A stretch of DNA of 38,062 nucleotides from contig QKFD01000012.1 of the NCBI GenBank assembly GCA_003251535.1, positions 1-38,062 of the forward strand, read 5' to 3'. Made by a program: the position numbers and the translations under genes. Shown here piece after piece: positions 16,493-38,062 of this stretch (its first letter is position 1; the number at the start of each line of letters is the position of its first letter). Below the pieces are notes generated by a model that was not told where the DNA came from, searched no databases, and saw only the letters and a program-made list of their open reading frames with translations. Source of the stretch: Chromatiales bacterium (lineage in GTDB: Bacteria > Pseudomonadota > Gammaproteobacteria > Thiohalomonadales > Thiohalomonadaceae).

Positions 16493-16503
16493 CCGGAGCC
16501 CCC

Positions 16504-18184: not shown

Positions 18185-18190
18185 GCCGGA

Positions 18191-19168: not shown

Positions 19169-19172
19169 AGCC

Positions 19173-20393: not shown

Positions 20394-20887
20394 ACGCCCT
20401 AAAGAGCTGGTGGGGGGGGTTGCAAGCGCGCGAGCGTCAGCTCCTCGGTGGTGGCGGTCTCCTACTCACTGTGATGTTGCTGTGGGCCTTTGTCTGGTAC
20501 CCCTTTACTAAAGAGTTGCACCGGCTGCGCAGCTCGGTGACCGAGCAGCGCGAGCTGCTGGCCTGGATGGAGCAGGCGGCCCAGGAGGCGAAGCGGCTGC
20601 AAGGGAGCCAGACCCATAGCGCCCCCCGCGGCGGCCGGCAGTCCCTGCTCACCATCGTTGACTCCACTGCCCGCTCCCAAGGGCTAGGCACCAGCCTAAA
20701 ACGGGTCCAGCCCGAGGGCGAGGCGGTACGGGTGTGGCTGGAGCAGGCGTCGTTCGACACCGTATTGCGCTGGTTGAATCTAGTGAGCCAACAGCACGGC
20801 GTCAGCATCACCGGCCTCGCCCTGGAGCGTAGCGCCACCCCCGGCCAGGTGGATGTGCGCGCCATCTTGGCGGGACCACAGCCATGA
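20390..20887 (+). CDS. gspM: Type II secretion platform protein GspM
   Basis: A 165-residue bitopic inner-membrane protein. A short cytoplasmic N-terminus (with LQARERQLL) precedes a helix at about 22-42 (LLLTVMLLWAFVWYPF). A coiled segment and a periplasmic ferredoxin-like domain follow, including SLLTIVDSTARSQGL and VSITGLALERS. GspM stabilises GspL and links it to the pseudopilus. The start overlaps the gspL stop by four bases. Confidence 0.93.
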   Translation: MNALKSWWGGLQARERQLLGGGGLLLTVMLLWAFVWYPFTKELHRLRSSVTEQRELLAWMEQAAQEAKRLQGSQTHSAPRGGRQSLLTIVDSTARSQGLGTSLKRVQPEGEAVRVWLEQASFDTVLRWLNLVSQQHGVSITGLALERSATPGQVDVRAILAGPQP

Positions 20888-21642: not shown

Positions 21643-22211
21643 TGGCTGATCGGCGCTGGCTGCTGCCGCCACTGCTGGTGGGTCTGGCGGCGCTGGCCGC
21701 CGCCGGCTGGGATCGGGAGCTACTTCAGTACCAACGGGAGGCGATCTCGGCAGGGGCGTGGTGGCGACTGCTGAGTGCCCACCTCACCCACCTCAACCCC
21801 ACTCATCTGCTGCTCAATCTGCTGGGTCTGGCCCTCAGCTGGGCCCTGGTGGGCCGACGCCTCTCCCCCCGGCGCTGGCTCCTAGCCCTCCCCCTGCTGG
21901 CCCTCGGGGTGGGGCTTGGGTTGTGGCTCTTCTCACCGGAGATCGCGTGGTATGTGGGGCTCTCTGGGGTACTCCACGGTGTGCTGGTGCTCGGCGCCCT
22001 AGCGGGTCTACGCCAGGAACCACTGGAGTCGGGGGCGCTGCTGGCGCTCGTACTGGCCAAGCTGGCTTGGGAGGGGTGGTCCGGCGCCATGAGCACGGCT
22101 TGGGTGGGACCCGTGGTGGTACGCGCCCACCTCTACGGCGCCATGAGTGCCCTCGCCCTCTTCCCCCTCTTTGCCTTTAAGCGCAACCCTCAACCACCAC
22201 TGAAACGGTAG
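21642..22211 (+). CDS. rrtA: Rhombosortase (rhomboid-family sorting protease)
   Basis: A 189-residue intramembrane serine protease with about six hydrophobic helices. Rhomboid landmarks are the first helix to HLTHLNPTHLLLNLLGL, the catalytic-serine motif GLSGVLHG, and the catalytic histidine in RAHLYGA near the C-terminus. The short size and GLSGVLHG signature fit the rhombosortase branch rather than house-keeping GlpG. Rhombosortases remove the GlyGly-CTERM tail from exported proteins before type II secretion. I use the ATG at 21642, overlapping the gspN stop (TGATG); a TTG one codon earlier is less likely. Its place at the end of the gsp operon, with a tailed protease just upstream, strongly supports the assignment. 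Confidence 0.93.
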   Translation: MADRRWLLPPLLVGLAALAAAGWDRELLQYQREAISAGAWWRLLSAHLTHLNPTHLLLNLLGLALSWALVGRRLSPRRWLLALPLLALGVGLGLWLFSPEIAWYVGLSGVLHGVLVLGALAGLRQEPLESGALLALVLAKLAWEGWSGAMSTAWVGPVVVRAHLYGAMSALALFPLFAFKRNPQPPLKR

Positions 22212-23815: not shown

Positions 23816-23913
23816 GATGCGACTCGATGAGGTGATGACAGTTGGCAACAACGCTAGAAAGTGCGGATGATGGCACCACCCCATCACTAGCGCTGGAGGC
23901 GACAAAGACGGCC

Positions 23914-24342
23914 ATGGGCATCCCAAGATCCATCCCCCTGCTGCTCGTACTACTCGCCACCCCAATGTCGTTTCTGGCAGCGGATCTACCGTGGACCGGT
24001 GGTGACTTTGGCGGTGGTTGGGAGTCGGATGGGCGCGGCGGTTTCCGCGGTACTGGGGAGAATTATGGCCAAGGGTGGGAAGCGGATGGTCGCGGTGGTT
24101 ATCGCGGCACCGGCAAGAACTATGGCGCCAGGTGGGAGGCGGATGGCCGCGGTGGCTATCGCGGTAGCGGCAAGAACTATGGTCAAGGGTGGAGTGCCGA
24201 TGGCCGCGGCGGCTTCCGTGGCACCGGCGACAACTACGGTTCCAACTGGGAAGGGGATGGGCGGGGCGGTTACCGCGGCAGCGGCCACGAGTACGGCCGT
24301 TCCGCTACCAGCGACGGGCGCGGCGGCTTCGACAGCCGCTAA
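23914..24342 (+). CDS. Secreted protein of 19-residue Gly-rich tandem repeats
   Basis: A 142-residue protein. I use the ATG at 23914, giving a clean signal peptide (MGIPRSIPLLLVLLATPMSFLA); an upstream in-frame ATG would bury it. The rest is five full copies and one partial copy of a 19-residue unit, close to WEADGRGGYRGTGKNYGQG. Every unit keeps DGRGG, an aromatic residue, RG(T/S)G and usually NYG. Corresponding DNA units are 57 bases and differ mainly at third positions, so selection acts on the protein. No cysteine or catalytic motif is present. Aromatic/Gly/Arg repeats suggest a structural, adhesive or self-associating exported protein; this is inference. Confidence 0.75.
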   Translation: MGIPRSIPLLLVLLATPMSFLAADLPWTGGDFGGGWESDGRGGFRGTGENYGQGWEADGRGGYRGTGKNYGARWEADGRGGYRGSGKNYGQGWSADGRGGFRGTGDNYGSNWEGDGRGGYRGSGHEYGRSATSDGRGGFDSR

Positions 24343-26049: not shown

Positions 26050-26574
26050 ATGACTCCGCACTCTCACTCCGCCGCACCGACGACCGCAACCACCCTCACC
26101 GCCCTCTTGGTAGCCCTGCTGTTATGGCTACTACTCACCGGCAGCCTCGACGGCCAAGAGCTGTTCATCGGCCTGCTGGTGGCGGTGGTTACCGTGCTGC
26201 TGGCACGCCGCCGCAGCGCCCTGTTTGACGGCATCATCTGGTCTAGCCAGTTGCCTGGGGCAGTGCTGCTCTACCTCGGCTACTTCCTCCGCGCCCTGGT
26301 GCACGCCAACCTCGATATGGCACGGCGCATCCTCTCGCCCGCGCTCCCCATCCGGCCGGCCCTGGTGCAGGTACGCACTGAACTCACCTCACCCCTCGGC
26401 CGTCTACTGCTAGCCAACAGCATCACCCTCACCCCCGGCACCTTAACGGTGGAGGTGGAGGATGCGCTGCTCACCATTCACTGGATTGACGTGCCGCCCG
26501 ATACCGACATCGATGCCGCCACCCGCGCCATCTGTGCCGACTTCGAGCGCTACTTGCGAGGGTTTGTGCGGTGA
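26050..26574 (+). CDS. mrpE: MrpE/MbxA-like antiporter subunit
   Basis: A 174-residue membrane protein of the MnhE/MrpE family. Two to three N-terminal helices (ALLVALLLWLLLTGS, ELFIGLLVAVVTVLLA) are followed by the family core YLGYFLRALVHANLDMARRIL. The conserved strand SITLTPGTLTVEVEDALLTIHWIDV is also present. The ATG at 26050 is preferred to a TTG two codons earlier. No strong ribosome site is visible. It is the first gene of the 14-gene operon and equals MbxA/MbhA in archaeal complexes, where this subunit contributes to the sodium-translocating Mrp module. Confidence 0.92.
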   Translation: MTPHSHSAAPTTATTLTALLVALLLWLLLTGSLDGQELFIGLLVAVVTVLLARRRSALFDGIIWSSQLPGAVLLYLGYFLRALVHANLDMARRILSPALPIRPALVQVRTELTSPLGRLLLANSITLTPGTLTVEVEDALLTIHWIDVPPDTDIDAATRAICADFERYLRGFVR

Positions 26575-26843
26575 CTCTGGCGGAACTGTTACAACTGGTG
26601 GCCCTGACCCTATTTGCAGCGGCCATCCTGCTCGGCCTCCTGCGCCTGGTGCGCGGCCCAGCCACCCCTGATCGCCTCGTGGCGGCCGACACCCTAACGG
26701 TGATCGCCACCGCCCTGCTGGCGGCCCTCGCCCCACGCCTCGGTAGCGCCCTCTATCTGGACGTCGCCCTGGTCTACGGCGTGCTCGCCTTCGTCGGCGT
26801 GGTCGCCCTGGCCCGCATCATTGAAACTGGAGGGGTGCGATGA
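26571..26843 (+). CDS. mrpF: MrpF/MbxB-like antiporter subunit
   Basis: A 90-residue, three-helix membrane protein starting at GTG, overlapping the previous stop by four bases. It shows the MrpF pattern: LRLVRGPATPDRLVAADTLTVIATALLA, with the conserved Asp pair (PDR and AAD), then ALYLDVALVYGVLAFVGVVALAR. MrpF is a small, obligatory subunit of Mrp antiporters and of Mrp-containing hydrogenase-like complexes. Confidence 0.93.
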   Translation: MTLAELLQLVALTLFAAAILLGLLRLVRGPATPDRLVAADTLTVIATALLAALAPRLGSALYLDVALVYGVLAFVGVVALARIIETGGVR

Positions 26844-27151
26844 ACCTGCTCGGCAGTCTGCTCCTGGTGGTGGGGGCGCTGTTCTGTTTTCTCGGCGCAC
26901 TCGGGCTGTGGCGTATGCCCGATGTCTATAACCGTATCCAGGCCGGCACCAAGGCGGTCACCCTCGGCACCCTCACCACCCTGCTTGGGGTGGCGCTGAT
27001 CCAACCGGGTTGGTGGCCCAAACTGTTGGCCATCGGTGGTCTACTGCTAATTACCAACCCCATCGGCTCCTCGGTCATCGCCCGCGCCCTGCTCCGGGCC
27101 GGTGTGGATCCGTGGCACCGCCCAGAGGCGGATAAAAGGGGCACCCCATGA
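26840..27151 (+). CDS. mrpG: MrpG/MbxC-like antiporter subunit
   Basis: A 103-residue, three-helix membrane protein. It has the MrpG signature ALGLWRMPDVYNRIQAGTKAVTLG, close to the family RxPDxxxRxHAxxKxxTLG, and then NPIGSSVIARA. The histidine common in MrpG (RxHA) is Gln here, as in IQAG, which may be a lineage feature of complex-associated forms. The start overlaps the mrpF stop by four bases. Confidence 0.93.
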   Translation: MNLLGSLLLVVGALFCFLGALGLWRMPDVYNRIQAGTKAVTLGTLTTLLGVALIQPGWWPKLLAIGGLLLITNPIGSSVIARALLRAGVDPWHRPEADKRGTP

Positions 27152-27429
27152 CCGCATTAGATCTGGTCATTCTGGCCCTGGTGGCGCTGCTCATCACCGG
27201 TGCCCTAGCAGCAATGCTGCTACGCAATCTGTTGGGTGCCGCGGTTGCCACTGCCCTGGTCTCCCTTGGGGTGTCGGTCTTTTTTGTCATCCTGCGGGCG
27301 CCTGATGTCGCCCTGACCGAAGCGGCGGTGGGGGCGGGGCTGAGCGGCCTGCTGTTGGCCCTGGCCGCCCGTCGGCTCGGCCTGTGGCGCATCGAGGTGC
27401 AGCAGTCAGAGGAGGAGCGTCAGTGCTAA
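27148..27429 (+). CDS. DUF4040/MbxD-like subunit
   Basis: A 93-residue, three-helix membrane protein corresponding to the DUF4040 domain found at the C-terminal part of MrpA or as separate MbhD/MbxD. Visible motifs are the LVSLGVSVFFVILRAPDVALTEAAVGAG stretch, which contains the conserved APDVALTEAAVG, and the following SGLLLALAARRLG. In Mrp complexes this segment helps to form the ion path with MrpB. Being separate from the large NuoL-like subunit is the arrangement of Mbh/Mbx complexes rather than stand-alone Mrp antiporters. It overlaps both neighbours. Confidence 0.88.
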   Translation: MTALDLVILALVALLITGALAAMLLRNLLGAAVATALVSLGVSVFFVILRAPDVALTEAAVGAGLSGLLLALAARRLGLWRIEVQQSEEERQC

Positions 27430-28121
27430 CCCGCTACGGATCGCTGCTGTTCGCCACTGGTTTTGCCTTTCTGCTCTTCAGCCTATTCATCGCCCTACCC
27501 ATGGGCGAGCCCCCCACCCTCGCCGGTCAGGCCATCCTCAATGAGGCGGCCAACAGTGTCGGGGCGGCCAATATCGTCACCTCGGTGGTGTTGGCCTACC
27601 GCGGTATCGACACCCTAGGTGAGCTGTCGATCCTATTCGCCGCCGCCACCGCCGTAGGTCTGGTACTAGGTGGCCAAGCGCGGGCGCCACGCCCCAGTAA
27701 GGAAGATGGGGCGGGGGGATTCATCCTGCAAACGGGGGTTGACCTGCTCTTCCCGCTGCTGCTGGTGGTGGGGTTCTACATCATCTTGCACGGCCACCTG
27801 ACGCCTGGTGGCGGTTTCCAGGGGGGGGTGGTACTGGCCGCTGCCCTCGTGCTACCCGTGCTGGCCCGCCCTGAGGAGAGCCCCTCGCCGGCGGCCCTCG
27901 CCTGGGTCGAGGGGTTGGCCGGGGCGGCCTTCATCGCCACCGGACTCGCCGCCCTTGCCTATGACCATGCCTTCCTGACCCCGCTCTTGGGCGCGGGTCA
28001 GCTGGGCGATCTCTTCTCTGCCGGCACCCTGCCGCTGCTCTACCTCGCCGTGGGTCTCAAGGTGGGAGCGGAGCTGGCCAAGCTGCTGCTGCGCCTGGCC
28101 GAGGAGGGCCCTGCCGCATGA
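27423..28121 (+). CDS. mrpB: MrpB/MbxF-like antiporter subunit
   Basis: A 232-residue membrane protein. GTG at 27423 is the likely start: it follows GGAGGAG and overlaps the previous stop. An N-terminal extension with two helices contains GAANIVTSVVLAYRGIDTLGELSILFAAATAVGL, the MbhE-type fused segment. The MrpB domain follows: DLLFPLLLVVGFYIILHGHLTPGGGFQGGVVLAAALVLP, with the hallmark HGHLTPGGGFQGG. MrpB thus appears as a fusion of MbhE- and MbhF-like parts, as in Mbx operons, where a separate E gene is lacking. Confidence 0.92.
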   Translation: MLTRYGSLLFATGFAFLLFSLFIALPMGEPPTLAGQAILNEAANSVGAANIVTSVVLAYRGIDTLGELSILFAAATAVGLVLGGQARAPRPSKEDGAGGFILQTGVDLLFPLLLVVGFYIILHGHLTPGGGFQGGVVLAAALVLPVLARPEESPSPAALAWVEGLAGAAFIATGLAALAYDHAFLTPLLGAGQLGDLFSAGTLPLLYLAVGLKVGAELAKLLLRLAEEGPAA

Positions 28122-28603
28122 GTGAATTTGGACTCGTCGCCCTGCTGGTGGGGGCCCTCGGCCTGATCGCCATCGGCATCGCTGGCCTGGTACTCGCCCG
28201 CAACCTATTCCGCTTGGTGCTGGCCCTGGCCGTCGCCGAAGCGGGGGCCAATCTGCTACTGGTACTGGCCGGTTTCCGCCAGGGGGCCAGCGCCCCCATC
28301 ATTGAAGGGGGCAGCACCCTCCACCAAGTTGCCATGGTTGACCCCATCCCGCAGGCGATGGTGCTTACTGCCATCGTCATCGGTGTGGGGGTGCAGGCCC
28401 TCGCCCTGGCCCTCGCCGTGCGGGCCCGTGAGGCCTACGGCAGCTTGGATATGGACCAGCTACGCGCCCGCATGGAGGCCGATATCATCGCCGCCGCCGG
28501 CACCGCCCCGACCACCAGTCAGGAGGCCCCCAGCGGCGCTCGTCCGCTCCCCCCGCCCCTGCCGAGCCCGGCTCGTATCGCGGCTGAGGAGCCGTCATCA
28601 TGA
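28118..28603 (+). CDS. mrpC: MrpC/MbxG-like (NuoK-like) subunit
   Basis: A 161-residue protein with three NuoK-like helices: LVALLVGALGLIAIGIAGLVL, FRLVLALAVAEAGANLLLVLAG with a membrane glutamate, and DPIPQAMVLTAIVIGVGVQALALALAV, with the DPxPQAxVLTAIVIG motif. The C-terminal ~50 residues are soluble and Pro/Ala-rich, longer than usual for MrpC (about 110-120 residues). The role of this tail is unknown. The gene overlaps both neighbours by four bases. Confidence 0.92.
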   Translation: MSEFGLVALLVGALGLIAIGIAGLVLARNLFRLVLALAVAEAGANLLLVLAGFRQGASAPIIEGGSTLHQVAMVDPIPQAMVLTAIVIGVGVQALALALAVRAREAYGSLDMDQLRARMEADIIAAAGTAPTTSQEAPSGARPLPPPLPSPARIAAEEPSS

Positions 28604-30072
28604 TCGCCCTGACTGTCGCCCTACCGCTACTCGCCGCCTTCCTGCTGCCGCTCCTACCAGCCCTGGCGCGCCAGTTTCTCGGCCCCTTGGTGCTGTTGGC
28701 GGTGGCCGCCTTTGGTCTCTGTCTTGCGGGCAACGCCCTGGACGCCCCCAGCGTGGTGGCAATAGGTGACTTCCGCCCCCCCCTCGGCATCGTCTTCTAC
28801 GCCGATGGGGTGGCCGGCCTGTTTGTCTTCGCCATCGCCGTGGTCACCCTGCTGCTCTGGCCCTGCGCCACACCCAATGGGCAGCCGGATCCCCAGATCA
28901 CCCGCAAGCACTCCCTCACCCTGCTCATGGCGGCGGCGAGTTGTGCCCTGGCGCTCTCGGGAGACCTGTTCAACATCTATGTCTTCTATGAGCTGGCAGC
29001 GGTGGCCGGTTACGGACTGGCCGCCGGGAGCCGCACCCCGGCGGCCCAGGTAGCCACCTTCCGCTTCACCCTCTTGGGGAGCCTCGGCTCACTGCTGGCG
29101 CTCATCGGCATCACCCTTATCTACTTCCGTGCCGGCAGCCTCAATCTGGCCCACCTGGCGGAGCTGGCCCCCAGTACCCTGCACGACCCGCTGGGACTGG
29201 CCGGCTTCCTGCTCATCCTGCTGGGTTTTGGGGTGAAGTCAGAGCTGTTCTTGGTCAACAGCTGGGCGCCGGAGGTCTACGCCACCGCCGAGAGCCGGGT
29301 CTCTGCCCTACTGGCCGGTCTCATCTCCAAGCTGGCGCTGCTGGCGGTGGTGCGGCTGCTGGTGCTGGTCTTCCCCGTCCCCGAGGCGAGCCAGCTGCTG
29401 CTGGTGCTGGGGATGCTCGGGATCCTCACCGGCGAACTGGCCGCCTATCGCGCCCGCGACTTCCGCCGCCTCCTCGCCTGGTCCTCCATCGGCCAGCTGG
29501 GGGCCGCCTTTGTCGCCTTCGCCATCCCCGGTCCGGCCGGCCTGATGGCCGGCATTGCCGTCGCCCTCCACCACTTGATGGTGAAGCCGGCACTATTCCT
29601 GCTGGCGGAGCGCTGGGGCGGTAATCTGGCGCAGTTGGCGGGGGCGGCCCGCAACTCCCCCATCGCGGCCGCGCTGTTTGTGCTATTCGCCCTCTCCCTC
29701 ATCGGGGTACCGCCACTGCCCGGCTTCTGGGCCAAGTACCTGCTGCTCTCCGGCCTGGCTGGCGAACCGGCCGGTCTCTGGTGGTTGGCGGGTCTGGTGG
29801 TGCTGACCACCACGGTGGTTGAGGCGGTCTACCTGTTCCGCATCATCGGCACCCTCTATGGCCACCAGCAGGGCAGTGTAATGCAGAGCCGGACCGCAAC
29901 CACCGGCAGTGGCATCTTTGCCTTGCTGCTCGTCGGTACTGCCCTCAGCGCCCCGCTGCTGGCGGCACCACTCCAGAAGATGGCCACCCAGTTGGCCGAC
30001 ACCGACGGTTACGTGGCGCAGGTGATCTCCGCCACTATCACCGCTCCTCAACGCTCCGGGACGGCGCCATGA
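28600..30072 (+). CDS. mrpD: MrpD/MbxH-like (NuoM/N-like) proton channel subunit
   Basis: A 490-residue membrane protein with about 14 helices, homologous to the antiporter-like subunits of complex I. The helix-5 glutamate lies in DLFNIYVFYELAAVAGYGLAA. The helix-7 lysine lies in GFGVKSELFLVNSWAPEVY, where most relatives have KxxxxPxHxWLPxAH; the proline-histidine part is altered. RVSALLAGLISKLALLAVVRL and the LLAWSSIGQLG segment follow, then an HHLMVKPALFL helix with another lysine. It should translocate cations within the complex. It starts with an ATGA overlap. Confidence 0.93.
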   Translation: MIALTVALPLLAAFLLPLLPALARQFLGPLVLLAVAAFGLCLAGNALDAPSVVAIGDFRPPLGIVFYADGVAGLFVFAIAVVTLLLWPCATPNGQPDPQITRKHSLTLLMAAASCALALSGDLFNIYVFYELAAVAGYGLAAGSRTPAAQVATFRFTLLGSLGSLLALIGITLIYFRAGSLNLAHLAELAPSTLHDPLGLAGFLLILLGFGVKSELFLVNSWAPEVYATAESRVSALLAGLISKLALLAVVRLLVLVFPVPEASQLLLVLGMLGILTGELAAYRARDFRRLLAWSSIGQLGAAFVAFAIPGPAGLMAGIAVALHHLMVKPALFLLAERWGGNLAQLAGAARNSPIAAALFVLFALSLIGVPPLPGFWAKYLLLSGLAGEPAGLWWLAGLVVLTTTVVEAVYLFRIIGTLYGHQQGSVMQSRTATTGSGIFALLLVGTALSAPLLAAPLQKMATQLADTDGYVAQVISATITAPQRSGTAP

Positions 30073-31931
30073 CCACCCCGCTCGATCTCCTGCTGTTCAC
30101 CGCCGCCGCCACCGTGGCAGGGGCCTTCGCCCTCGGCCGCTGGCGCGATATCGCCTGGCTCACCGGCGCCTTCTACATCGCCCAGCTGATCCAGCTGACC
30201 GGCCTCGATCTCCCCAGCGCCAGCCACGCCGGCTTTACGCTGTTTGGCCAGCTGGTGGGGTGGCAGATGGACGGCTTCGGCCGCTTCTTTGCCATCATCA
30301 CCGTGGGGGCCGCGGCCGCCGCCACCGCCTACATGGGGGGTGAGTGGGGCGAGCGCTACCGCCAGGCCGGCCACAGCCTGGTCTGGCTGCACGGCGCCCT
30401 CGCCATCAATGTGCTGGCGATGCTGCTGCTGCTCGCCGGTAATGACCTCATCGCCCTTTTCATCGGCTGGGAGCTGACCAGCTGGGCCAGCTTCCTGCTC
30501 ATGGCCCAAGGGGGGGAGCGGGCGCTGCGGGCTGCCCTGCGTTACGTCCCCTACGCCATGGGGGCCGCCATGGCGGTGCTGGGCGGGATTGTGCTAACCC
30601 ACGCCTTCACCGGCACCCTCCAGTTCACCGAGTTGGCGCAGCGGGTGCCGCAGCTGGAGAACTGGCAGTTGGCGCTGATGGTCACCCTCTTCGGGGTGGG
30701 CTTCTCCATCAAGATGGGGCTGCTGCCGTTCCACCTCTGGCAGGCGCCCGCCTACGCCGAGGCGGCCGGGGCCGGCACCTCCTTCCTAGGGGCCATCTCG
30801 GCACGCATGGGGCTGTTTGCCCTGGCGCTGCTGCTGGTGAAGTTTGTCTCCCTCACGCGCCTGGCGGACCTCGAATTTGTCAGCGGGCTGTTTGACGCCC
30901 GCGACCTCATCGCCTGGGTCGCCGCCTTCACCATCGTCCTGCCCACCTTTACCGCCCTCAAGCAGAACGATGCCCGCTACCTGCTCGCCTGGCACGGCAT
31001 CGGTCAGGGGGGTTACATGCTGCTCGGCATCGTCATCGGCGACGCCACCGGCAGTGCCGGTGGCCTGCTGCATGTCTTCAACTACGCCACCTACCAGGCC
31101 GCCCTGGTGCTCTCCGTCTTCGCCGTGCTGCACCGCACCGGCACCGCTGATCTCAACTCCCTCGGCGGGCTAGTGACGCGGATGCCGCTCACCTTCCTGG
31201 TCATGTTGATGGGGATCATCGGCCTCGCCGGCCTGCCGCCGATGAACGGCTTCGTCTCCAAGTGGCTGGTCTACCGCTCACTGATGATAGAGGGGCGGCC
31301 ACTGCTGTTCTTGATGACGGTCATCGGCACCCTCGGCACCATCCTCAGCGTCTATAAACTGATTCACAACACCTTCCTGGGCCAGCTGCGGCTGGAGCAC
31401 GAGGGGATCCGCGAGGCGCCCTGGAGCATGACCATACCGATGCTGGTGCTGGTAGGAATCGGCTTCGTCACCGGCGTCGCCCCCGGCCTGCCGCTCCAGT
31501 GGGTCAATGATGCCCAGGCCGCCCTCGGGCTGCCGGTGTTGCCCCACACCCTCGGCGGCGTGGAGTCCTCCCAGGGCGGGCTCGATATGCTCTGGGTGGT
31601 GGGGGTGCTATTCGCCGGCTTTGGTATCGGTGCCCTGCTCTTCTACGGGGTGGGCAACCGCTCCAAACGGATCCACCAGCTGGACAACTACGCCGGTGGC
31701 CACTTCCTCTCCGCCGATGTGCGCTACCACTACAGCGACCACTTCTACGCCGGCCTGATGCACCGCATCGGCCCCCTCTATCGGGGTAGCTTCACCCGGC
31801 TTGAAGAGGCCGTCGCCTCCGCCAACGACACCCTGGCCGCACTGATGCAGGCGTGGTATCGGCAGCGGGTACCGATGTTGACACTACTGGTTGCCGCCAC
31901 CGCGGGCCTGGGATGGATGGTGCTCCAATGA
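30069..31931 (+). CDS. NuoL/MrpA-like second antiporter subunit (MbxH'-like)
   Basis: A 620-residue membrane protein of the proton-conducting transporter family. Key residues are visible: glutamate in ALFIGWELTSWASFLLM, lysine in GFSIKMGLLPFHLWQAPAYAEA and histidine in LLAWHGIGQGGYMLLG. A late helix carries GIIGLAGLPPMNGFVSKW with lysine. After the core there is a ~130-residue C-terminal extension including RIHQLDNYAGGHFLSADVRYHYSDHFY and a final helix (MLTLLVAATAGLGWMVLQ). This tail is reminiscent of the anchor of hydrogenase-type subunits. A second large antiporter subunit beside MrpD is the hallmark that distinguishes Mbx from Mbh. It overlaps both neighbours. Confidence 0.88.
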   Translation: MTTPLDLLLFTAAATVAGAFALGRWRDIAWLTGAFYIAQLIQLTGLDLPSASHAGFTLFGQLVGWQMDGFGRFFAIITVGAAAAATAYMGGEWGERYRQAGHSLVWLHGALAINVLAMLLLLAGNDLIALFIGWELTSWASFLLMAQGGERALRAALRYVPYAMGAAMAVLGGIVLTHAFTGTLQFTELAQRVPQLENWQLALMVTLFGVGFSIKMGLLPFHLWQAPAYAEAAGAGTSFLGAISARMGLFALALLLVKFVSLTRLADLEFVSGLFDARDLIAWVAAFTIVLPTFTALKQNDARYLLAWHGIGQGGYMLLGIVIGDATGSAGGLLHVFNYATYQAALVLSVFAVLHRTGTADLNSLGGLVTRMPLTFLVMLMGIIGLAGLPPMNGFVSKWLVYRSLMIEGRPLLFLMTVIGTLGTILSVYKLIHNTFLGQLRLEHEGIREAPWSMTIPMLVLVGIGFVTGVAPGLPLQWVNDAQAALGLPVLPHTLGGVESSQGGLDMLWVVGVLFAGFGIGALLFYGVGNRSKRIHQLDNYAGGHFLSADVRYHYSDHFYAGLMHRIGPLYRGSFTRLEEAVASANDTLAALMQAWYRQRVPMLTLLVAATAGLGWMVLQ

Positions 31932-32827
31932 GCTTCGCTGGAATCTTGATCGAACTGACCCTGATGCCGCTGGTGGCCTTCACCATCGGCCTGTTCATGG
32001 TGTTGATGATGCGCAAGATCGCGGCCAAGATTCAGCGCCGCGTCGGCCCGCCGCTGCTCCAGCCGCTGTATGACATCATCAAGCTCTACAGCAAGCAGAC
32101 CCAGACCTCCCACGGCCTGCTACACGACATCGGTATCGTCATGGCGGTGGGTGGCTATATCGCCGCCGAGACCATGGTGCCGGTGCCCGGGATGCACGGC
32201 ATCGCCGACAAGGCGGGGCTGCTCACCCTGGCCTACGTCACCATGATCCCCTCCCTGGGGCTCGCCCTCGGGGTTGGCCAGTGCGCCAACCCCAACGGCT
32301 CCATCGGTATCTCCCGCGCCCTCACGGCGATGCTCGCCTACGATGTGCCGTTCGTCATCATCATCTTTGGCACCGCTTGGTTCTACGGCTCCAACAACCT
32401 GGTGGAGGTGGTGGCCGCCCAGCAGGCCGGCGGGATCGCCACCTGGGGCGTGATGCAGATGCCGATCCTGGCCATCGCCGGCCTGTTCTCGCTCTACGCC
32501 ATGCTCGGTAAGCAGCCGTTTGAGATCTACGTTGCCCCGGCCGAGATCGCCACCGGACCGATGGTGGAGATGGGGGGCAAATTCCTCGGCGGGCTGTTTG
32601 TGATGCAGTGCTTCCAGCTCTTTACCGCCAGCGCCATCTACGTCTCGCTCTTCCTTGGCGGCGGTGAGAACTGGCCCTTCTTTATTGCCAAGCTGTTTTT
32701 CATCATCGCCATCCCCATGAGCCTCGCCTTCCTGTTCCCCCGCTACCGCACCGAAGATGTGCTGGCGGCGGTCTGGCGCTGGCCGGTGATCTTGGGGTTG
32801 GCGGGTGTCTGGCTGGTGATGCATTGA
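31928..32827 (+). CDS. NuoH/MbxM-like membrane anchor subunit
   Basis: A 299-residue membrane protein with about eight helices. The ATG at 31928 overlaps the previous stop. Family landmarks are KIAAKIQRRVGPPLLQPLYDIIKLYSK, that is the QxRxGPxxxQPxxDxxKL motif, and DVPFVIIIFGTAW. The conserved loop KQPFEIYVAPAEIATGPMVEMGGKFLG then carries acidic residues like those in NuoH that line the entry to the membrane arm. In complex I this loop helps form the quinone cavity; in Mbh/Mbx it couples the redox module to the antiporter module. Confidence 0.94.
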   Translation: MSFAGILIELTLMPLVAFTIGLFMVLMMRKIAAKIQRRVGPPLLQPLYDIIKLYSKQTQTSHGLLHDIGIVMAVGGYIAAETMVPVPGMHGIADKAGLLTLAYVTMIPSLGLALGVGQCANPNGSIGISRALTAMLAYDVPFVIIIFGTAWFYGSNNLVEVVAAQQAGGIATWGVMQMPILAIAGLFSLYAMLGKQPFEIYVAPAEIATGPMVEMGGKFLGGLFVMQCFQLFTASAIYVSLFLGGGENWPFFIAKLFFIIAIPMSLAFLFPRYRTEDVLAAVWRWPVILGLAGVWLVMH

Positions 32828-32839
32828 GGTGATCGACCT

Positions 32840-33577
32840 ATGACAGATCTCCGCACTATCCCCGTGGTGGCTGCTGGCGAGGAGCGTCCCTCCGGCGGCC
32901 AGGGCAACCTACTCGCGCGGGTGTTCGACGAACTCACCGCCTTCTGCCGCTCGCGGTCGCTGTTCATGCTCCACTACTGCACCGGCTGTGGTGCCGTTGA
33001 GCTGCCGCCGGCGATGACCTCGCGCTTCGATATGGAGCGGCTGGGGATCCAGCCGATGGTCACCCCGCGCCAGGCCGATATCCTGCTGGTGACCGGCTAT
33101 GTCTCCACCAAGACCCTGAAGCGCATCATCCTCACCTATGAGCAGATGAACTCGCCCAAATATGTGATCGGCATCTGCTCCTGCACCGTCAATGGCGGCA
33201 TGTATTGGCAGAGTTACGCCACCGCCAAGAAGCTCAACGACTATCTGCCGGTGGATATGTATATCGCCGGCTGTATGCCGCGCCCCGAGGCGGTGATCAG
33301 CGGCCTGCGGGAGCTGATCGCCAATATCCGCGCTGGCCGGTCCGATTACTGGCGTGACTACTACCGCCGCTATGATCACTACCTCGGCAACCAGCAGCGG
33401 CTGTTCGGCGAGAACTGGCAGACCCCCACCGATGTCATTGCAGAGGCGCGCCACTACGGCCTGTTTGGCCCCGAGACCCTGGGCGAACACACCGCGCTGC
33501 TAGAGCAGCATCAAACCCCGCTCCAGCCATTTGAGATGCGCCTCGGCCTCAAACAAGACAAAGGCAGCTCATCATGA
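32840..33577 (+). CDS. NuoB/MbxJ-like small subunit (N2-type 4Fe-4S)
   Basis: A 245-residue soluble subunit carrying the cluster nearest the active site. Cysteine ligands fit C47-T-G-C50, C115 in SCTVNGG, and C145 in AGCMPRPEA. The spaced CxxC rather than the adjacent CC pair of true complex I NuoB places it with the hydrogenase-like Mbh/Mbx branch. The C-terminal ~85 residues are an extension (YWRDYYRRYDHYLGNQQRLFG) not found in short NuoB. It is the only gene in the set not overlapping its upstream neighbour (12-base gap), with a GAGGTGATC ribosome site. Confidence 0.92.
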   Translation: MTDLRTIPVVAAGEERPSGGQGNLLARVFDELTAFCRSRSLFMLHYCTGCGAVELPPAMTSRFDMERLGIQPMVTPRQADILLVTGYVSTKTLKRIILTYEQMNSPKYVIGICSCTVNGGMYWQSYATAKKLNDYLPVDMYIAGCMPRPEAVISGLRELIANIRAGRSDYWRDYYRRYDHYLGNQQRLFGENWQTPTDVIAEARHYGLFGPETLGEHTALLEQHQTPLQPFEMRLGLKQDKGSSS

Positions 33578-34170
33578 CGCCGACAGACGCGCCGGGACAC
33601 GATGTCACCACCACCCTCGACTTCCTGCTCCAGGAGGTGGATGGGTTACGTACCCGCTGGGTGGCCCCCCGCCGCCTGCGGGTCGATCTCCCTGCGGAGA
33701 CCCTGCCTGCCCTGCTGGAACTCCTGAAGGGGCGGGCCGGTTATGTCCACCTCTCTGCCATCAGCTGCGTTGACTGGCCGGACGATGGCCAGTTCGAGCT
33801 GGTCTACCACACCTGGTCCTATGAGCTGAATGTGCTGGTGATGGCCCACATCCGCATCCCCCGTGACCCGGGGGTCTACCTCTCCATCTATGACCTCTAC
33901 CGCCCGGCGGCCTTCTTCGAGCGCGATATCCACGAGATGTTCGGCCTCTGGTTTGAGGGCAGCCCGGATATGGGCAAGTTCATCCTCACCGAGTGGGAGG
34001 GGCCACCGCCCATGCGTAAAGAGTTTGACGGCGAGGCGTGGGTGATGGAGCAGTTTGGTTGGCAAGAGTACCGCCCCGAGTGGCTGACGGAGATCGAGGC
34101 CAAGGGGGGTGGGATCAGCAAGCGCCCGGAGCAGCTGCGCGGCGACAAGGGTGAGGATGGCACAGCATGA
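33574..34170 (+). CDS. NuoC/MbxK-like subunit
   Basis: A 198-residue soluble subunit of the NuoC family. The N-terminal domain includes YVHLSAISCVDWPDDGQFELVYHTWS. The family signature AAFFERDIHEMFGLWFEGSPDMGKFIL, close to ERE(V/I)xDxFGIxFxGHPDLRRIL, is followed by WEGPPPMRKEF. It stabilises the NuoB/NuoD-like pair in the peripheral arm. It overlaps both neighbours by four bases. Confidence 0.93.
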   Translation: MTPTDAPGHDVTTTLDFLLQEVDGLRTRWVAPRRLRVDLPAETLPALLELLKGRAGYVHLSAISCVDWPDDGQFELVYHTWSYELNVLVMAHIRIPRDPGVYLSIYDLYRPAAFFERDIHEMFGLWFEGSPDMGKFILTEWEGPPPMRKEFDGEAWVMEQFGWQEYRPEWLTEIEAKGGGISKRPEQLRGDKGEDGTA

Positions 34171-35309
34171 GACCGGAAAATTATCAGGCGGTCAGCCATC
34201 CGCCGAGCCACGAGTATGAGGTCTTTTTCGGCCCCAACCACCCGGGCATCGAGGGTAACTACGCCCTCAAGGTGCGGCTACATGGCGATGAGGTGACGGC
34301 GGCCCGGGCCGACGGCGGCTATCTCCACCGCGGCTTCGAGAAGCTGATGGAGGGGCGGCTCTGGATCCAGAACATCGCCCTCGTACCCCGTATCTGCGTC
34401 CCCGATCCGGTGCCGATGGAGGTGTGCTACTCCCTCGCCATCGAGGCGCTGGGGGGGCTGGAGGTCCCGGAGCGGGCGCAGTGGATCCGAGTGATGCAGC
34501 TGGAGCTGTCGCGCATCGCCGCCCACCTCTTCACCTTTGGCGGGAACGCCGCCACCACCGGCATGTATACGCCGATGTTCTGGGGCATCGCCGATCGTGA
34601 CCTCATCCTCGACCTGTTTGAGGAGCTGTCCGGGGGTCGCGTCTACCACATCTACAACATCCCTGGTGGGGTGCGGCGCGACCTGCCGGAGGGCTATCTC
34701 AAGCGGGTCAGCGACACCCTCGACTATATCGAGTCACGCCTGCCGGACTACGACAACCTGATGTTCACCAACCAGGTATTTGTCCGCCGCGCCACTGGCG
34801 TCGGCATTATGACCCAGGAGCAGGCGCTGGACTGGGGGGTCACCGGCCCCAACCTGCGCGCCACCGGCCTCCCCTTTGATGTGCGCCGCGACGACCCCTA
34901 CCTGATCTACGACCAGCTGGAGTTTGATGTCCCCGTGGAGGAGGCGGGCGACGCCTGGGCCCGCACCTTGGTCCGTCGGGCCGAGCTGAAGCAGAGCTTG
35001 CGCATCTTGCGCCAGGTGGTGGCGCGGCTGCCGGAGATCGACGGCCCCATCCGCGCCCCCATCCCCAACCCCTTGGCCTGGAACCTACCCCTGGGCGACG
35101 TCTACACCCGGGTGGAGTCCTCCAAGGGGGAGCTGGCCTACTACGTGGTCTCCAACGGCGGTGACAAGCCGTGGCGCGTGCATGTCCGCGGCCCGTCGGC
35201 CATGCACGCGGTGCAGGTGCTGGAGCACCTGGTCACCGGGGCGCGCATCGAAGATGTGGCGCAGATCATGTTCTCCCTCGACGCCTGTCCTCCGGAGGTC
35301 GACCGCTAA
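34167..35309 (+). CDS. NuoD/MbxL-like catalytic subunit lacking a full NiFe site
   Basis: A 380-residue homologue of NuoD and of group 4 NiFe-hydrogenase large subunits. The N-terminal motif is FFGPNHPGIEG, with E29 where complex I has the quinone-site histidine. The first nickel motif CxxC is C77-V-P-D80; the second is C374-P-P-E377 in DACPPEVDR. Thus each pair keeps one cysteine and has an acidic residue in place of the other. Neither a standard NiFe centre nor a standard quinone site is expected. This is like the modified sites reported for Mbx/Mbs sulfane reductases, although I could not align them here. It has full family length and overlaps both neighbours. Confidence 0.92.
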   Translation: MRPENYQAVSHPPSHEYEVFFGPNHPGIEGNYALKVRLHGDEVTAARADGGYLHRGFEKLMEGRLWIQNIALVPRICVPDPVPMEVCYSLAIEALGGLEVPERAQWIRVMQLELSRIAAHLFTFGGNAATTGMYTPMFWGIADRDLILDLFEELSGGRVYHIYNIPGGVRRDLPEGYLKRVSDTLDYIESRLPDYDNLMFTNQVFVRRATGVGIMTQEQALDWGVTGPNLRATGLPFDVRRDDPYLIYDQLEFDVPVEEAGDAWARTLVRRAELKQSLRILRQVVARLPEIDGPIRAPIPNPLAWNLPLGDVYTRVESSKGELAYYVVSNGGDKPWRVHVRGPSAMHAVQVLEHLVTGARIEDVAQIMFSLDACPPEVDR

Positions 35310-37141
35310 TGAGCGATATCGACTATAAACAGCGCGGCAGCCTGCTCAACCCGCTGCGCAGCCTGGGCTTCTTTGGCCGGCCGCCGGTCACCCAGCCGCT
35401 GGAACCGCGCCCCGCCTCTATCAACTACCGCGGCTTCCACCTCAACGACTGGGAGAAGTGTGTCGGCTGTGGCACCTGCCAGAAGGTGTGCGACAACGCC
35501 GCCATCTCCATGGTCCACATCCCCGACCTACCTGCCGATCCGGCCAAGGGGGTGCGACCGGAGCGGCCCGCCATCGACTACGGCCGCTGCTGCTGGTGCG
35601 GGCTCTGCGTAGACATCTGCCCCACCGGGGCCCTCGCCCTCTCGCGGGAGTATGTCCACACCTGCGTCGATGCCGACCTCTCCAGCTACTTCATCCTGCC
35701 CGATAGCCACGGCATCCACGGCCAGCCCTACGAAAAAGGGTGGGCCAAGACCGCCGACGCCGACCTCATCAGCCTGCTGCGGGAGCCGATGCCGGAGCTG
35801 GAGCCGGAGCAGCGGATCGAGAACTTTGACGAGATCGTCGGCGGCTATGACCCCCAGCAGGCGCTGCTGGAGGCGTCGCGCTGTGTACAGTGCGGCATGT
35901 GCCACGACGCCTGCCCCACCCACATGCACGCCCCCCAGTACATCCGCGCCATCTGGGAGGGCAAGCTGGAGGAGGCGGTGGGCTGGATCTACCAGACCAA
36001 CCCCTTCGCCCACATCTGCGGCCGGGTCTGCACCCGCCGCTGCGAGACCGCCTGCTCCATCGGCCACCGCGGTGAACCCATCGCCATCCGCTGGCTGAAG
36101 CGCTACGCCATGGATGCCATCCCCCACGAGCGGGTGAAGCAGATCGCCGCCGCCGGCCGCTGCGAGACCCCGAGCGGGCAGCGGGTGGCCATCGTCGGTG
36201 CCGGCCCCGCCGGGCTCACCTGCGCCTTCGATCTGGCCAAGCAGGGCCACGCCGTCACCGTCTTTGAGGCGCTATCCCAACCGGGTGGTATGACCCGCTG
36301 GGGGATCCCGGAGTACCGCCTCCCCTATGACCGGATCGACCGTGACATCGATGTCATCCAATCCCTGGGGGTAGAGATCCGCTGCAACACCCGGATCGGC
36401 AGCGACATCACGCTGGAGGAGCTGCATCAACAGTACGATGCCGTGCTCATCGCCCTCGGCCTACAGATGGGCCGCGGGACCCGCATCCCCGGGAGTGACC
36501 ACCCACAGGTCCGGCGGGCGGTGGATCTCCTACGCCAGGCCACCGCCGGCGAGGAGTTTGGCACCCCGCAGAGCGCCGTAGTGATCGGCGGCGGCAACGT
36601 CGCCATGGATATCGCCCGTACCCTGGCCCGCCTGCAACGTCAGCGCTTCGGTACCGCTCAGGTGACCATCACAGCGCTGGAGGAGCTATCCCACTTCCTG
36701 GCCGATCCGGTGGAGATCAAAGAGGCCCACGAGGAGGGGATCACCATCCTGCCAGCCCGCGGGCCGCGGGAGGTGGTGGTGGAGGACGGTAATCTAGTGG
36801 GGCTCGCCACCTGGCGGGTCACCTCCATCTTCGACGAACAGGGCCGCTTCTCCCCCACCTACGACCAGGAGGACGCCCAGATCCATACAGCCGAGATGGT
36901 GGTAGAGGCGATTGGCCAGATGAGCGACACCGGCCTGCTGGGCGATGAGTTGACCGAGCGGCTCGCCTGGAACCGCGGTCGGCTCCAGGTGGATAGCGAC
37001 GGCCGCACCAGCGAGGCATGGCTCTGGGCCGCGGGTGACATGGTGCGAGGCCCCGATGTGGTCAGCGCCGTGGCCGACGGCCACCGGGTCGCCGCCAGTA
37101 TCCACGCCGCCCTCAGTGCGGCCAAGGAGCAGAACCCATGA
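35309..37141 (+). CDS. NuoI-like ferredoxin fused to GltD/NfnB-type NAD(P)H oxidoreductase
   Basis: A 610-residue fusion protein. The ATG at 35309 overlaps the previous stop and is preceded by GGAGG. Residues 1-~145 are a NuoI/MbxN-like two-cluster ferredoxin, with cysteines 51, 54, 57 and 61, then 94, 97, 100 and 104. Residues ~165-250 are the iron-sulfur domain of GltD/NfnB proteins, with cysteines 192, 195, 198 and 202, then 237, 241, 245 and 249. The flavin domain follows: GAGPAG (297-302), QPGGMTRWGIPEYRLP, the NAD(P)-binding GGGNVAMD (427-434) and the closing AAGD with VSAVADGHRVA. It should pass electrons between NAD(P)H and the NuoB-like cluster, replacing a separate dehydrogenase module. 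The direction of flow is unknown. Confidence 0.93.
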   Translation: MSDIDYKQRGSLLNPLRSLGFFGRPPVTQPLEPRPASINYRGFHLNDWEKCVGCGTCQKVCDNAAISMVHIPDLPADPAKGVRPERPAIDYGRCCWCGLCVDICPTGALALSREYVHTCVDADLSSYFILPDSHGIHGQPYEKGWAKTADADLISLLREPMPELEPEQRIENFDEIVGGYDPQQALLEASRCVQCGMCHDACPTHMHAPQYIRAIWEGKLEEAVGWIYQTNPFAHICGRVCTRRCETACSIGHRGEPIAIRWLKRYAMDAIPHERVKQIAAAGRCETPSGQRVAIVGAGPAGLTCAFDLAKQGHAVTVFEALSQPGGMTRWGIPEYRLPYDRIDRDIDVIQSLGVEIRCNTRIGSDITLEELHQQYDAVLIALGLQMGRGTRIPGSDHPQVRRAVDLLRQATAGEEFGTPQSAVVIGGGNVAMDIARTLARLQRQRFGTAQVTITALEELSHFLADPVEIKEAHEEGITILPARGPREVVVEDGNLVGLATWRVTSIFDEQGRFSPTYDQEDAQIHTAEMVVEAIGQMSDTGLLGDELTERLAWNRGRLQVDSDGRTSEAWLWAAGDMVRGPDVVSAVADGHRVAASIHAALSAAKEQNP

Positions 37142-37650
37142 CTCAGCATGAAGGCACCGTCCACGGCATCGCTCGGCTGCGGGACAAGACCACCCTACGG
37201 GAGATCCTAGAGGTCGCCACCTCCTTCGAGGCGAGCGCCCGCGACTTCTACACCGACCTCGCCCCTAAGGTGAGCAAGCGGATCCGCTACCTGGTGGAGG
37301 AGCTGGCGGCCGAGGAGCAGCGCCACTTCGACCTGTTTAATGACCTCGCCCAGCGGACGGACCTGCACGAGCAGATTCAGCAGGAGATCGACACCCCCGC
37401 CAGCGACAGCCAGTTCTCCGACTGCCTCCATCTACCCCACCTAGGCGAGGCACCGGATGATCAAGAGGTGCTGCAATACGCCATGGGGCGGGAACACACC
37501 GCCATGGTCCACTACGGCGAACTAGCAGAAACCACCCCACCCGGCCCCATCTGCGATCTCTTCCACTACCTCGCCTCAGAGGAGACCAAGCACAAGCTGG
37601 AGCTGGAGAAGCTCTACTACCAGCTGGTGCATCGTGGCGGTGGGGTGTAG
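37138..37650 (+). CDS. Rubrerythrin-type ferritin-like di-iron protein
   Basis: A 170-residue, all-helical protein. Di-iron ligands are placed as in rubrerythrins: Glu in ATSFEASARDFY, ExxH in AAEEQRHFDLF, Glu in MGREHTAMVHYGE, and ExxH in ASEETKHKLELEKLYY. The C-terminal rubredoxin domain of classical rubrerythrin is absent. It overlaps the preceding fusion gene by four bases (ATGA), so it belongs to the operon. Rubrerythrin relatives reduce peroxide using electrons from NAD(P)H flavoproteins or rubredoxin, so it may protect the complex or accept electrons from the fused flavoprotein. That role is inference. Confidence 0.9.
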   Translation: MTQHEGTVHGIARLRDKTTLREILEVATSFEASARDFYTDLAPKVSKRIRYLVEELAAEEQRHFDLFNDLAQRTDLHEQIQQEIDTPASDSQFSDCLHLPHLGEAPDDQEVLQYAMGREHTAMVHYGELAETTPPGPICDLFHYLASEETKHKLELEKLYYQLVHRGGGV

Positions 37651-37683: not shown

Positions 37684-37811
37684 GTGTGCCGGGGTGGGGA
37701 TTGTCGGGTGACGCTCCGCTAACCCGACCTACCGACGATGCCCTCTTTCTTGCTTCCTTGGGCCTCAAACTCCATGCGTTAGCGGCGCAACGGGACAGCA
37801 AAGACGAGCCC
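37684..37811. repeat. Intergenic repeat, copy 1, with REP-like palindrome
   Basis: This ~128-base unit is nearly identical to 37936-38062, differing by about five changes including one indel. Near its start is a REP-like dyad (37703-37728), GTCGGGTGACG then GCTAACCCGAC. No gene is present; translations in all frames are broken or lack motifs. Confidence 0.85.
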
Positions 37812-37823
37812 GGCCACCTGTAG

Positions 37824-37850
37824 GTCGGCGTTAGCGCAGCGTAACCCGAC
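37824..37850. repeat. REP-like palindrome between the two repeat copies
   Basis: GTCGGCGTTAGCG and CGTAACCCGAC form an imperfect dyad of the same family as the dyads in both flanking copies, but in the opposite orientation. This is the kind of GC-rich REP element often found after operons. Confidence 0.75.
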
Positions 37851-37935
37851 AACCCTCCGCAGGAGCGCAACCGCATTCCACTGGCCCTATGGGTGCGGCT
37901 CGGTGTGGTTGTTCCGCTGCCGCGTTTGTGGAGGT

Positions 37936-38062
37936 GTGTGCCGGGGTGGGGATTGTCGGGTTACGCTCCGCTAACCCGACCTCCGACGATGCCCTTTTTC
38001 TCGCTTCCTTGGGCCTAAAACTCCATGCGTTAGCGGCGCAACGGGACAGCAAAGACGAGCCC
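37936..38062. repeat. Intergenic repeat, copy 2, running off the window
   Basis: The second copy of the ~128-base unit starts 252 bases after copy 1 and reaches the last base of the window. Its palindrome (37955-37980) has perfect 9-bp arms, GTCGGGTTA and TAACCCGAC. Ongoing matching at the edge suggests the array or unit may continue. Confidence 0.85.

Follow-up and report, generated by a model that had tools for sequence, protein, structure and literature searches.

An MBS-type respiratory complex with a putative NAD(H)-linked electron input in a likely sulfur-oxidising gammaproteobacterium

We analysed a window of 38,062 nucleotides, the whole stretch of contig QKFD01000012.1 (Chromatiales bacterium, assembly GCA_003251535.1), which carries on the plus strand, at 26050-37141, an operon of thirteen genes for a Mrp-coupled membrane complex. 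An earlier note on this DNA had read the operon as a respiratory complex of the Mbx/MBS type, neither complex I nor a hydrogenase, and gene order, residues and the tree of the MbsL subunit bear this reading out. By sequence comparison, the architecture, the clade and the cluster ligands are those of MBS, the quinone and nickel sites are missing, and the YRR phosphate-binding motif is missing from a flavin adenine dinucleotide (FAD)/nicotinamide module fused to the MbsN subunit. These features make it reasonably probable that the complex, with electrons entering from NAD(H), is an NADH:polysulfide (sulfane sulfur) oxidoreductase coupled to H+/Na+ movement. The complex as such is known, and has been outlined before in one gammaproteobacterium; what appears new is the variant of electron input.

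Gene order and catalytic core

Pfam matches and gene order confirm the thirteen genes, which are mostly joined by overlaps of 1-4 bases, with the exception of a 12-base gap 5' of the NuoB-like gene. A fourteenth gene, at 37138-37650, goes unmentioned in the earlier note, whose end at 37650 covers it. The genes, with their Pfam or top PDB matches, are as follows.

26050-26574, plus strand: MrpE/MbsA-like (MNHE), PF01899 at 5e-38
26571-26843, plus strand: MrpF/MbsB-like, PF04066 at 7.4e-17
26840-27151, plus strand: MrpG/MbsC-like, PF03334 (MnhG) at 2.8e-24
27148-27429, plus strand: DUF4040/MbsD-like, PF13244 (MbhD) at 1e-17
27423-28121, plus strand: MbsE-like, MbhE and MnhB in a single chain, start set at GTG, PF04039 at 5e-25 and PF20501 (MbhE) at 2e-5, the latter under the curated cut-off
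28118-28603, plus strand: MnhC/MbsG-like (Oxidored_q2), PF00420 at 5.9e-20
28600-30072, plus strand: MbsH-like antiporter subunit (MrpD-like), 6u8y_H at 7e-57
30069-31931, plus strand: MbsH'-like antiporter subunit (MrpA/NuoL-like), 6u8y_X at 2.2e-47
31928-32827, plus strand: MbsM-like membrane anchor (NuoH-like; NADHdh), 6u8y_M at 4.7e-47
32840-33577, plus strand: MbsJ-like (NuoB-like; Oxidored_q6), 6u8y_J at 1.2e-61
33574-34170, plus strand: MbsK-like (NuoC-like; Complex1_30kDa), PF00329 at 2.4e-25
34167-35309, plus strand: MbsL-like (NuoD-like; Complex1_49kDa), 6u8y_L at 402 bits
35309-37141, plus strand: fusion of MbsN with an NfnB/GltD-type FAD/nicotinamide module, 610 residues, Fer4, Fer4_20 and Pyr_redox_2
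37138-37650, plus strand: rubrerythrin/ferritin-like diiron protein with no rubredoxin domain, PF02915 at 3.5e-14

The order, which the earlier note had likened to archaeal mbx/mbs operons, equals that of Pyrococcus furiosus PF1453-PF1441 (mbx), not that of mbh (PMC2678158). Here nuoH stands ahead of nuoB and there is a single MnhB gene, as in mbx, whereas mbh has two MnhB genes and nuoH after nuoD (PMC2678158). The same order was found in four relatives' genomes, in two of which the two antiporter genes are fused. In 45 of the named loci, the best 80 from at least 564 matches, all gene classes occur in this order, with two antiporter open reading frames (ORFs) in 43 and one long ORF in 2. Because the order recurs in this way, the operon is not an assembly artefact, a doubt that the earlier note had raised. 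Most of the other 35 loci end at a contig edge; eight (L047-L054) have their genes scattered, an arrangement inspected in six of them.

The MBS structure 6u8y is the top PDB match for subunits L, J, M, H and H', and also for the N-terminal region of the fusion. When compared with every PDB chain, the MbsL-like protein reaches 402 bits with 6u8y_L; the highest-scoring complex I chain reaches 272 bits and MBH 137. The MbsJ-like protein scores 212 bits with 6u8y_J, 114 with the best chloroplast NDH chain, 100 with MBH and at most 99 with complex I. The second-best match of the MbsM-like protein, at 3.4e-17, is a chloroplast NDH subunit. Both antiporter-like subunits are Proton_antipo_M proteins in Pfam. 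In the spirochaete loci L059 and L060, the antiporter subunits have Glu at the expected places of MbsH' K217 and MbsH K250; therefore, their pump chemistry may differ.

The tree that the earlier note had suggested for the NuoD-like subunit places MbsL in one clade with P. furiosus MbsL (SH-aLRT support 100). In this tree of 125 rows, the MBS clade comprises 90 rows (support 100) and is separate from complex I (98), Fpo (91) and NiFe rows (100), the names Fpo and NiFe being assigned here from row motifs. The trees are quick IQ-TREE runs, and the P. furiosus alignment rows are chain parts. L002-L010 and matches of fewer than 250 residues were excluded ahead of the MbsL alignment, and L001, L050, L053, L056, L058, L063 and L102 were excluded from the tree. 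The MBS clade also takes in rows from the phylum of a DHVE2 archaeon, two of which (L116, L119) have His at the place of the quinone-binding His38 and Val at that of Tyr87. In L120, both C85 and C385 of MbsL are lost.

The residues agree with this placement. The MbsJ-like protein keeps the three-cysteine set that, by alignment with MBS, is expected to hold the site-differentiated [4Fe-4S] cluster: the proximal ligands C50, C115 and C145 align with 6u8y_J C28, C93 and C123 in an ungapped alignment with a short CxxC loop and a further cysteine, C47. All three ligands are present in 77/77 complete rows. MbsJ C25 (P. furiosus numbering) is Gly in 28 of 80 rows, and in P. furiosus this cysteine was reported dispensable on mutation (PMC7684303). 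For MBS, inactivation by ferricyanide and its reversal with Fe2+ were also reported (PMC7684303). The place of the tandem cysteines of complex I is taken by CTGC. In the MbsL-like protein, C77 and C374 correspond to MBS C85 and C385, both kept, while E29 and V78 occupy the places of the quinone residues His38 and Tyr87 (Thermus thermophilus Nqo4). The [NiFe] cysteine pairs are incomplete, with one Cys missing from each; the motifs read RICVPD and LDACPPE, compared to RICGIC and DPCxxC-type motifs in hydrogenase rows.

Complex I identity was dropped on the missing quinone His/Tyr and NuoB tandem cysteines, the position outside the NuoD clade and the PDB scores; identity as a group 4 [NiFe] hydrogenase (Mbh, Ech) on the two missing large-subunit CxxC pairs; and the quinone-reductase reading on residues, PDB matches and the MbsL tree. 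A separate, ordinary complex I is encoded on contig C41 of the host genome, with NuoD next to L-, H-, I- and C-like neighbours. The electron acceptor, which the earlier note had called open, is not wholly so: the residues favour sulfane sulfur or polysulfide, and disfavour quinone and H+.

The electron-input module and the diiron protein

The NuoI-fusion gene of the earlier note is present; what the note missed is the nature of the added part, an NfnB/GltD-type nicotinamide module with no NADP motif. Residues 6-119 match MbsN at 78 bits (the best complex I NuoI scores 48), whereas residues 158-605 match NfnB, GltD, dihydropyrimidine dehydrogenase and StnC-like chains. Two of the PDB chains, 5jca and 4ylf, carry the printed names "NfnI subunit alpha" and "dihydropyrimidine dehydrogenase subunit A", and we take them to be the NfnB-type proteins of P. 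furiosus and Thermotoga maritima. The fusion has four [4Fe-4S] motifs, and their 15 cluster cysteines (eight MbsN-type and seven GltD-type) are invariant in 31/31 aligned fusions. At the place of the Glu ligand that marks electron-bifurcating NfnB (E117), the fusion has K264, a Lys likewise invariant in the 31 fusions, and an NfnA-type domain was not found among the Pfam matches of the operon. In the non-bifurcating StnC, a Lys stands at the same ligand place, and bifurcation is lost (PMC10482914).

The second motif bears on the cofactor. In T. maritima NfnB, Y310-R311-R312 bind the NADP phosphate; in assays, DsrL-2, which has YRR, is active only with NADP(H), whereas of two DsrL-1 enzymes without YRR, one strongly prefers and the other requires NAD(H) (all PMC7596348). 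The window fusion has ALE at this place. YRR is missing from every proteobacterial fusion read through the site, 36/36 of type 1 (the window's type; window excluded, Beggiatoaceae-type fusions included, some rows near-copies) and 3/3 of type 2 (see below), all with ALE or similar, such as the ALQ of Parasulfuritortus cantonensis; four of the four spirochaete fusions read have SLE. Conversely, YRRR is found in 28/28 fusions read from other phyla (Bacteroidota, Ignavibacteriota, Calditrichota, WOR-3, Thermotogota, Fermentibacterota and others), and these are therefore probably NADP(H)-linked. L055, a copy of L014, was left out of the count. No motif was obtained automatically from ten type-1 loci (L041, which is truncated; L047-L054, with no fusion on the contig; and L024, read separately as IALE), nor from two of six spirochaete and nine of 37 other loci. 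By analogy with the assayed DsrL enzymes, the missing YRR points to an NAD(H)-linked entry, and we regard the fusion as probably NAD(H)-linked (hereafter NAD-type) and non-bifurcating.

In the module tree, 60 such fusions from many phyla form a clade, so that the fusion is not peculiar to the window lineage; in the archaeal locus L089, the N subunit has 200 residues and no module. L055 and L056 were excluded ahead of the module alignment, and L036, L066, L069, L091, L094 and one host GltD relative from the tree. Descent of the module from DsrL was rejected: the host DsrL shares only 32% identity with the fusion and, in the module tree, sits on a long branch apart from the clade of 60 fusions. 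Four YRRR-type operons (L073, L074, L077, L088) have a separate NfnB-like gene downstream of the fusion.

The fourteenth gene follows the fusion in 31/33 type-1 and 2/2 type-2 proteobacterial loci, and in 0/4 spirochaete and 0/18 other loci. These counts cover loci with at least 700 bases of room after the fusion; the 33 type-1 loci include six Beggiatoaceae-type genomes, with the gene in this place in 4/6. The PDB matches of its product are weak (2fzf, 3.5e-4), and the candidate diiron ligands E31, E59, E60, H63, E119, E148, E149 and H152 are invariant in 32/32 rows. The protein would probably guard open, oxygen-sensitive clusters in oxygen-exposed hosts, a role in oxygen or peroxide protection suggested by the haem-copper oxidase gene of the host.

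Three operons (L016, L017, L107), here called type 2, encode MrpD and MrpA in a single chain of ~1040 residues, and their MbsL has Tyr for C385 (3/3 rows). In the MbsL tree, they group with Fermentibacterota (support 99), whose loci L081 and L085 likewise have one long antiporter ORF. Forcing type-2 MbsL together with the NAD-type rows was rejected at p = 0.003 in a 42-row subset, for a group named after the larger MbsL tree had been viewed. In the module tree, the type-2 fusion protein lies inside the proteobacterial NAD-type clade (support 100). The simplest reading of the two trees is that a single cassette of input module and guard protein was placed on two MBS cores.

Carriers, direction and alternative readings

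The earlier note had called such a complex unexpected in a gammaproteobacterium, which the survey does not support: 37 of the best 80 loci (L021-L056, L064) are labelled beta- or gammaproteobacteria, Pseudomonadota or symbionts. By record title, the carriers include Sedimenticola, Candidatus Thiodiazotropha, symbionts of Lamellibrachia and Escarpia, Thiohalocapsa, Lamprocystis, Parasulfuritortus (with the named strain P. cantonensis LSR1, L030), Thiomargarita and Parabeggiatoa. For Endoriftia, a gammaproteobacterial symbiont of tubeworms, a "putative Mrp-Mbx complex" has been published (PMC11636981).

Codon usage, which the note had said matches the chromosome, does so in part: the operon correlates at r = 0.93 with 25 long ORFs on other contigs of this genome (a set not filtered for antisense ORFs), compared to r = 0.85 for five other window genes, but it is richer in G+C than the preceding part of the window (0.663 vs 0.607; at third codon positions 0.86 vs 0.80). 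The complex was found in 5/56 genomes of the relatives search (own genome included) and 4/20 of the own family, and the nearest MbsL among the best 80 loci, at 90%, is from a metagenome-assembled genome (MAG) labelled Parasulfuritortus, a betaproteobacterium. Because of this patchiness and this nearest relative, the claim that the operon is not a fresh import is left without proof.

The complex is widespread in sulfur oxidisers of the rDsr type. In a sample of the class, MbsJ occurs in 9/229 genomes (E at most 1e-38) with nine different family codes, and dsrA is over the cut-off in 9/9 of these, compared to 73/229 overall; the chance of this co-occurrence is 2.4e-5, or 7.5e-5 leaving out the window genome, uncorrected for kinship. 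Among 20 named proteobacterial carriers, dsrA is over the cut-off in 16 and fragmentary in one (L024); among the others it is found in 0/11. These dsrA counts leave out the type-2 carriers G003 and G008. The host genome has dsrA twice, with a dsrL-like gene near one copy, two RuBisCO-family genes and one haem-copper oxidase gene (COX1); it is likely an autotrophic, and likely an aerobic, sulfur oxidiser. A recurrent sulfur gene at a fixed place by the operon was not found among the flanking ORFs of L014-L017, L021-L056 and L064: the widest cluster, PAS-type sensor-like, spans six loci and the others among the printed clusters three.

In the Beggiatoaceae-type genomes, the operon genes are scattered and the fusion is kept in 6/6, at 62-66% identity. 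Scattered genes were seen in L047-L054 and L144-L149. L054 has an ORF resembling a DNA cytosine methyltransferase between the antiporter genes and MbsL; L048, a MAG doubtfully labelled Dichelobacter nodosus, has a full-length MbsL gene (9423-10580) and, 1.4 kb further, a second MbsL piece of 100 residues (12023-12325).

The path of electrons, and with it NADH as cofactor, the substrate, the direction, the coupling and the ferritin-like protein's role, we infer from these comparisons. NADH would pass a hydride to the FAD of the GltD-type module, from which electrons would move singly through the two [4Fe-4S] clusters of the module and then the two of the MbsN part, and onward to the three-cysteine proximal cluster of MbsJ. 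This cluster would cleave S-S bonds in the chamber formed by MbsL, MbsJ and MbsM, and the three-loop link to MbsM and MbsH' would drive both antiporter-like subunits together with the Mrp-type Na+ module. The transfer of electrons from NADH to sulfur yields ~10 kJ/mol per two electrons, so that the NAD version may pump little or run near balance, and may reverse. For ferredoxin to sulfur in MBS, the yield is 41 kJ/mol per two electrons (PMC7684303). In the cell, the complex would be mostly reductive, dumping electrons on stored sulfur when oxygen or nitrate is scarce. This role is ranked first because of MBS itself, of the spirochaete carriers, which have no dsrA (0/3 genomes), and of the Endoriftia network, in which the Mrp-Mbx genes, like those for sulfur-globule proteins, neighbour the reductive tricarboxylic acid (rTCA) cycle, and the Calvin-Benson-Bassham (CBB) genes neighbour Sox, rDsr, bc1 and cbb3, not Mrp-Mbx (PMC11636981).

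Several observations weigh against a pumping NADH:polysulfide oxidoreductase tied to sulfur oxidisers. Two of the five charged MbsM residues named in MBS are replaced here (E104 by Met, E193 by Gln), and in the alignment so are H330 (Val) and E219 (Lys) of MbsH and K248 (Arg) of MbsH'. The host GltD, whose family is not known to bifurcate, also carries Glu at the K264 place, so that the Lys by itself proves little. The step from YRR loss to cofactor choice has DsrL as its single analogue, and the fusion is only 32% identical to the host's own DsrL. In addition, dsrA was not found in three of the 20 named proteobacterial carriers (L044, L045, L048), and the spirochaetes hold the NAD-type module with no dsrA. 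It should be noted that the placing in Endoriftia is a network inference of that paper, and that the sequences compared here are those of L025, L027 and L028.

The same complex could run in the opposite direction, with proton or sodium motive force driving electrons in one step from sulfide or polysulfide to NAD+ for CO2 fixation, bypassing quinone and complex I. NADH and sulfur are only ~50 mV apart, so that the reaction is reversible across a near-zero energy span, and the host, with its RuBisCO-family genes, two dsrA copies and dsrL-like gene, is likely an autotrophic sulfur oxidiser. In addition, the DsrL of Allochromatium vinosum, which has no YRR, is biased to NAD+ reduction (PMC7596348). 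Conversely, MBS is characterised as a reductase, the Endoriftia genes neighbour rTCA and not CBB genes (PMC11636981), the spirochaetes with the module have no dsrA, and an ordinary complex I is on hand for reverse transport. We therefore consider reversal a possibility of lesser weight.

Ferredoxin is improbable as a continuing partner, whether the complex is pictured as a ferredoxin/NAD(H)/sulfur device that pumps ions while passing electrons from ferredoxin to NAD+, like Rnf, or as one that bifurcates at FAD. P. furiosus MbsN accepts electrons from ferredoxin (PMC7684303), the MbsN part is kept here, and the module belongs to the NfnB family, which is able to bifurcate. The nicotinamide module fused to MbsN itself argues for another donor; the NfnB Glu is Lys in 31/31 fusions, like in StnC, whose FAD does not bifurcate; no NfnA-like domain is among the Pfam matches of the operon; and four operons of other phyla have an NfnB-like gene of their own. 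That the operon is a remnant, or encodes a simple Na+/H+ antiporter serving salt and pH balance with an idle redox arm, would fit the charge-axis residues unlike those of P. furiosus, but is very unlikely given cluster ligands invariant across phyla and a fusion kept in all six Beggiatoaceae-type genomes with scattered genes. Hardly credible is a second, diverged complex I reducing quinone: it would fit the similar chamber and the homology of every peripheral subunit to complex I, but Glu/Val at His38/Tyr87, CTGC at the tandem cysteines, MbsL outside the complex I clade and the regular complex I on C41 speak against it.

Other window features and comparison with known systems

Elsewhere in the window, 13808-22211 holds a protease ORF, then secretion-type ORFs and then a small ORF at 21639-22211; we take these to be a subtilisin-like protease with a GlyGly-CTERM-like tail, general-secretion genes gspG to gspN-like, and a rhomboid-like protein, possibly a rhombosortase. 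A protein of 2497 residues on the minus strand within 338-10427, presumably RHS/YD-repeat-like, has a metalloprotease-like HExxH tail; two similar small ORFs, at 338-799 and 2479-2949, are presumably secreted or lipoprotein-type. The product of 23842-24342 is a glycine-rich protein of short repeats (GKNYGQGWEADGRGGYRGSG-like) with no match in Pfam. At the right contig end, a ~130-base repeat (37686-37830 and 37931-38062, similarity ratio 0.87) may be why the assembly ends there.

Compared to the MBS of P. furiosus (PF1453-PF1441, 6u8y), the window operon has the same gene order, 13 subunits, two antiporter subunits, single-chain MbsE, MbsJ three-cysteine set and two remaining MbsL cysteines, and likewise no quinone His/Tyr. 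It differs in the C-terminal FAD/nicotinamide module of ~460 residues on MbsN, the diiron gene after the fusion, some charge-axis residues and a host that is likely an aerobic sulfur oxidiser. The variation among relatives offers a natural test of the MBS mechanism, with MbsJ C25 replaced by Gly (28/80) and MbsL C385 by Tyr (3/3 type-2). The bacterial Mbx of Bacteroidota, Ignavibacteriota, WOR-3, Thermotogota and Fermentibacterota share order and fusion with the window, but have YRRR, often Gly for MbsJ C25, and no rubrerythrin-type gene (0/18 with room). The 13-subunit MBX of T. maritima, likened to the window by description only, is described as homologous to P. furiosus MBS; sulfur raises the level of the mbxA transcript, and ferredoxin is taken as the donor (PMC9431562).

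The "Putative Mrp-Mbx" of Endoriftia has the same name and host type as the window complex, a likeness by description; the excerpts of PMC11636981 give no subunit anatomy, cofactor or ferritin for it. As in the window, an NAD-type fusion and a diiron gene are found at the tubeworm symbiont loci L025, L027 and L028. A search of open-licence PMC articles gave this one paper for "Mrp-Mbx", and neither the NAD-type fusion nor the diiron partner was found in its listings and excerpts. Beggiatoa reduces stored sulfur in anoxia with stored polymers or hydrogen, and the word "reductase" is absent from the text of that paper (PMC4959497); for this reduction in sulfur-storing bacteria, the operon is a concrete ion-pumping candidate with a predicted cofactor.

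Like NfnB, StnC and DsrL, the window module has Fer4_20 and Pyr_redox_2 and is expected to bind FAD and two [4Fe-4S] clusters, with Lys at the ligand place as in StnC and no YRR as in DsrL-1; unlike them, it is part of a membrane pump subunit, and the operon illustrates how a new electron input is fitted to a Mrp-type pump. With complex I it shares homologous L, J, K, M and H subunits and, likely, NADH as donor, and it differs in a GltD-type instead of a NuoEFG NADH module, another substrate site and a Mrp-type membrane arm. We hold about evenly balanced the broader proposal that an NADH-driven relative of complex I, an NAD(H):polysulfide oxidoreductase pump, was assembled a second time and independently: a GltD-type module would have been joined to MbsN, would have shifted from NADP(H) to NAD(H), and would be carried with a diiron guard by proteobacteria that oxidise sulfur. 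Such a pump would be the enzyme still missing from anoxic stored-sulfur respiration in Beggiatoaceae and kin and, if reversed, a direct sulfide-to-NADH pump, with its cassette also seated on the type-2 core.

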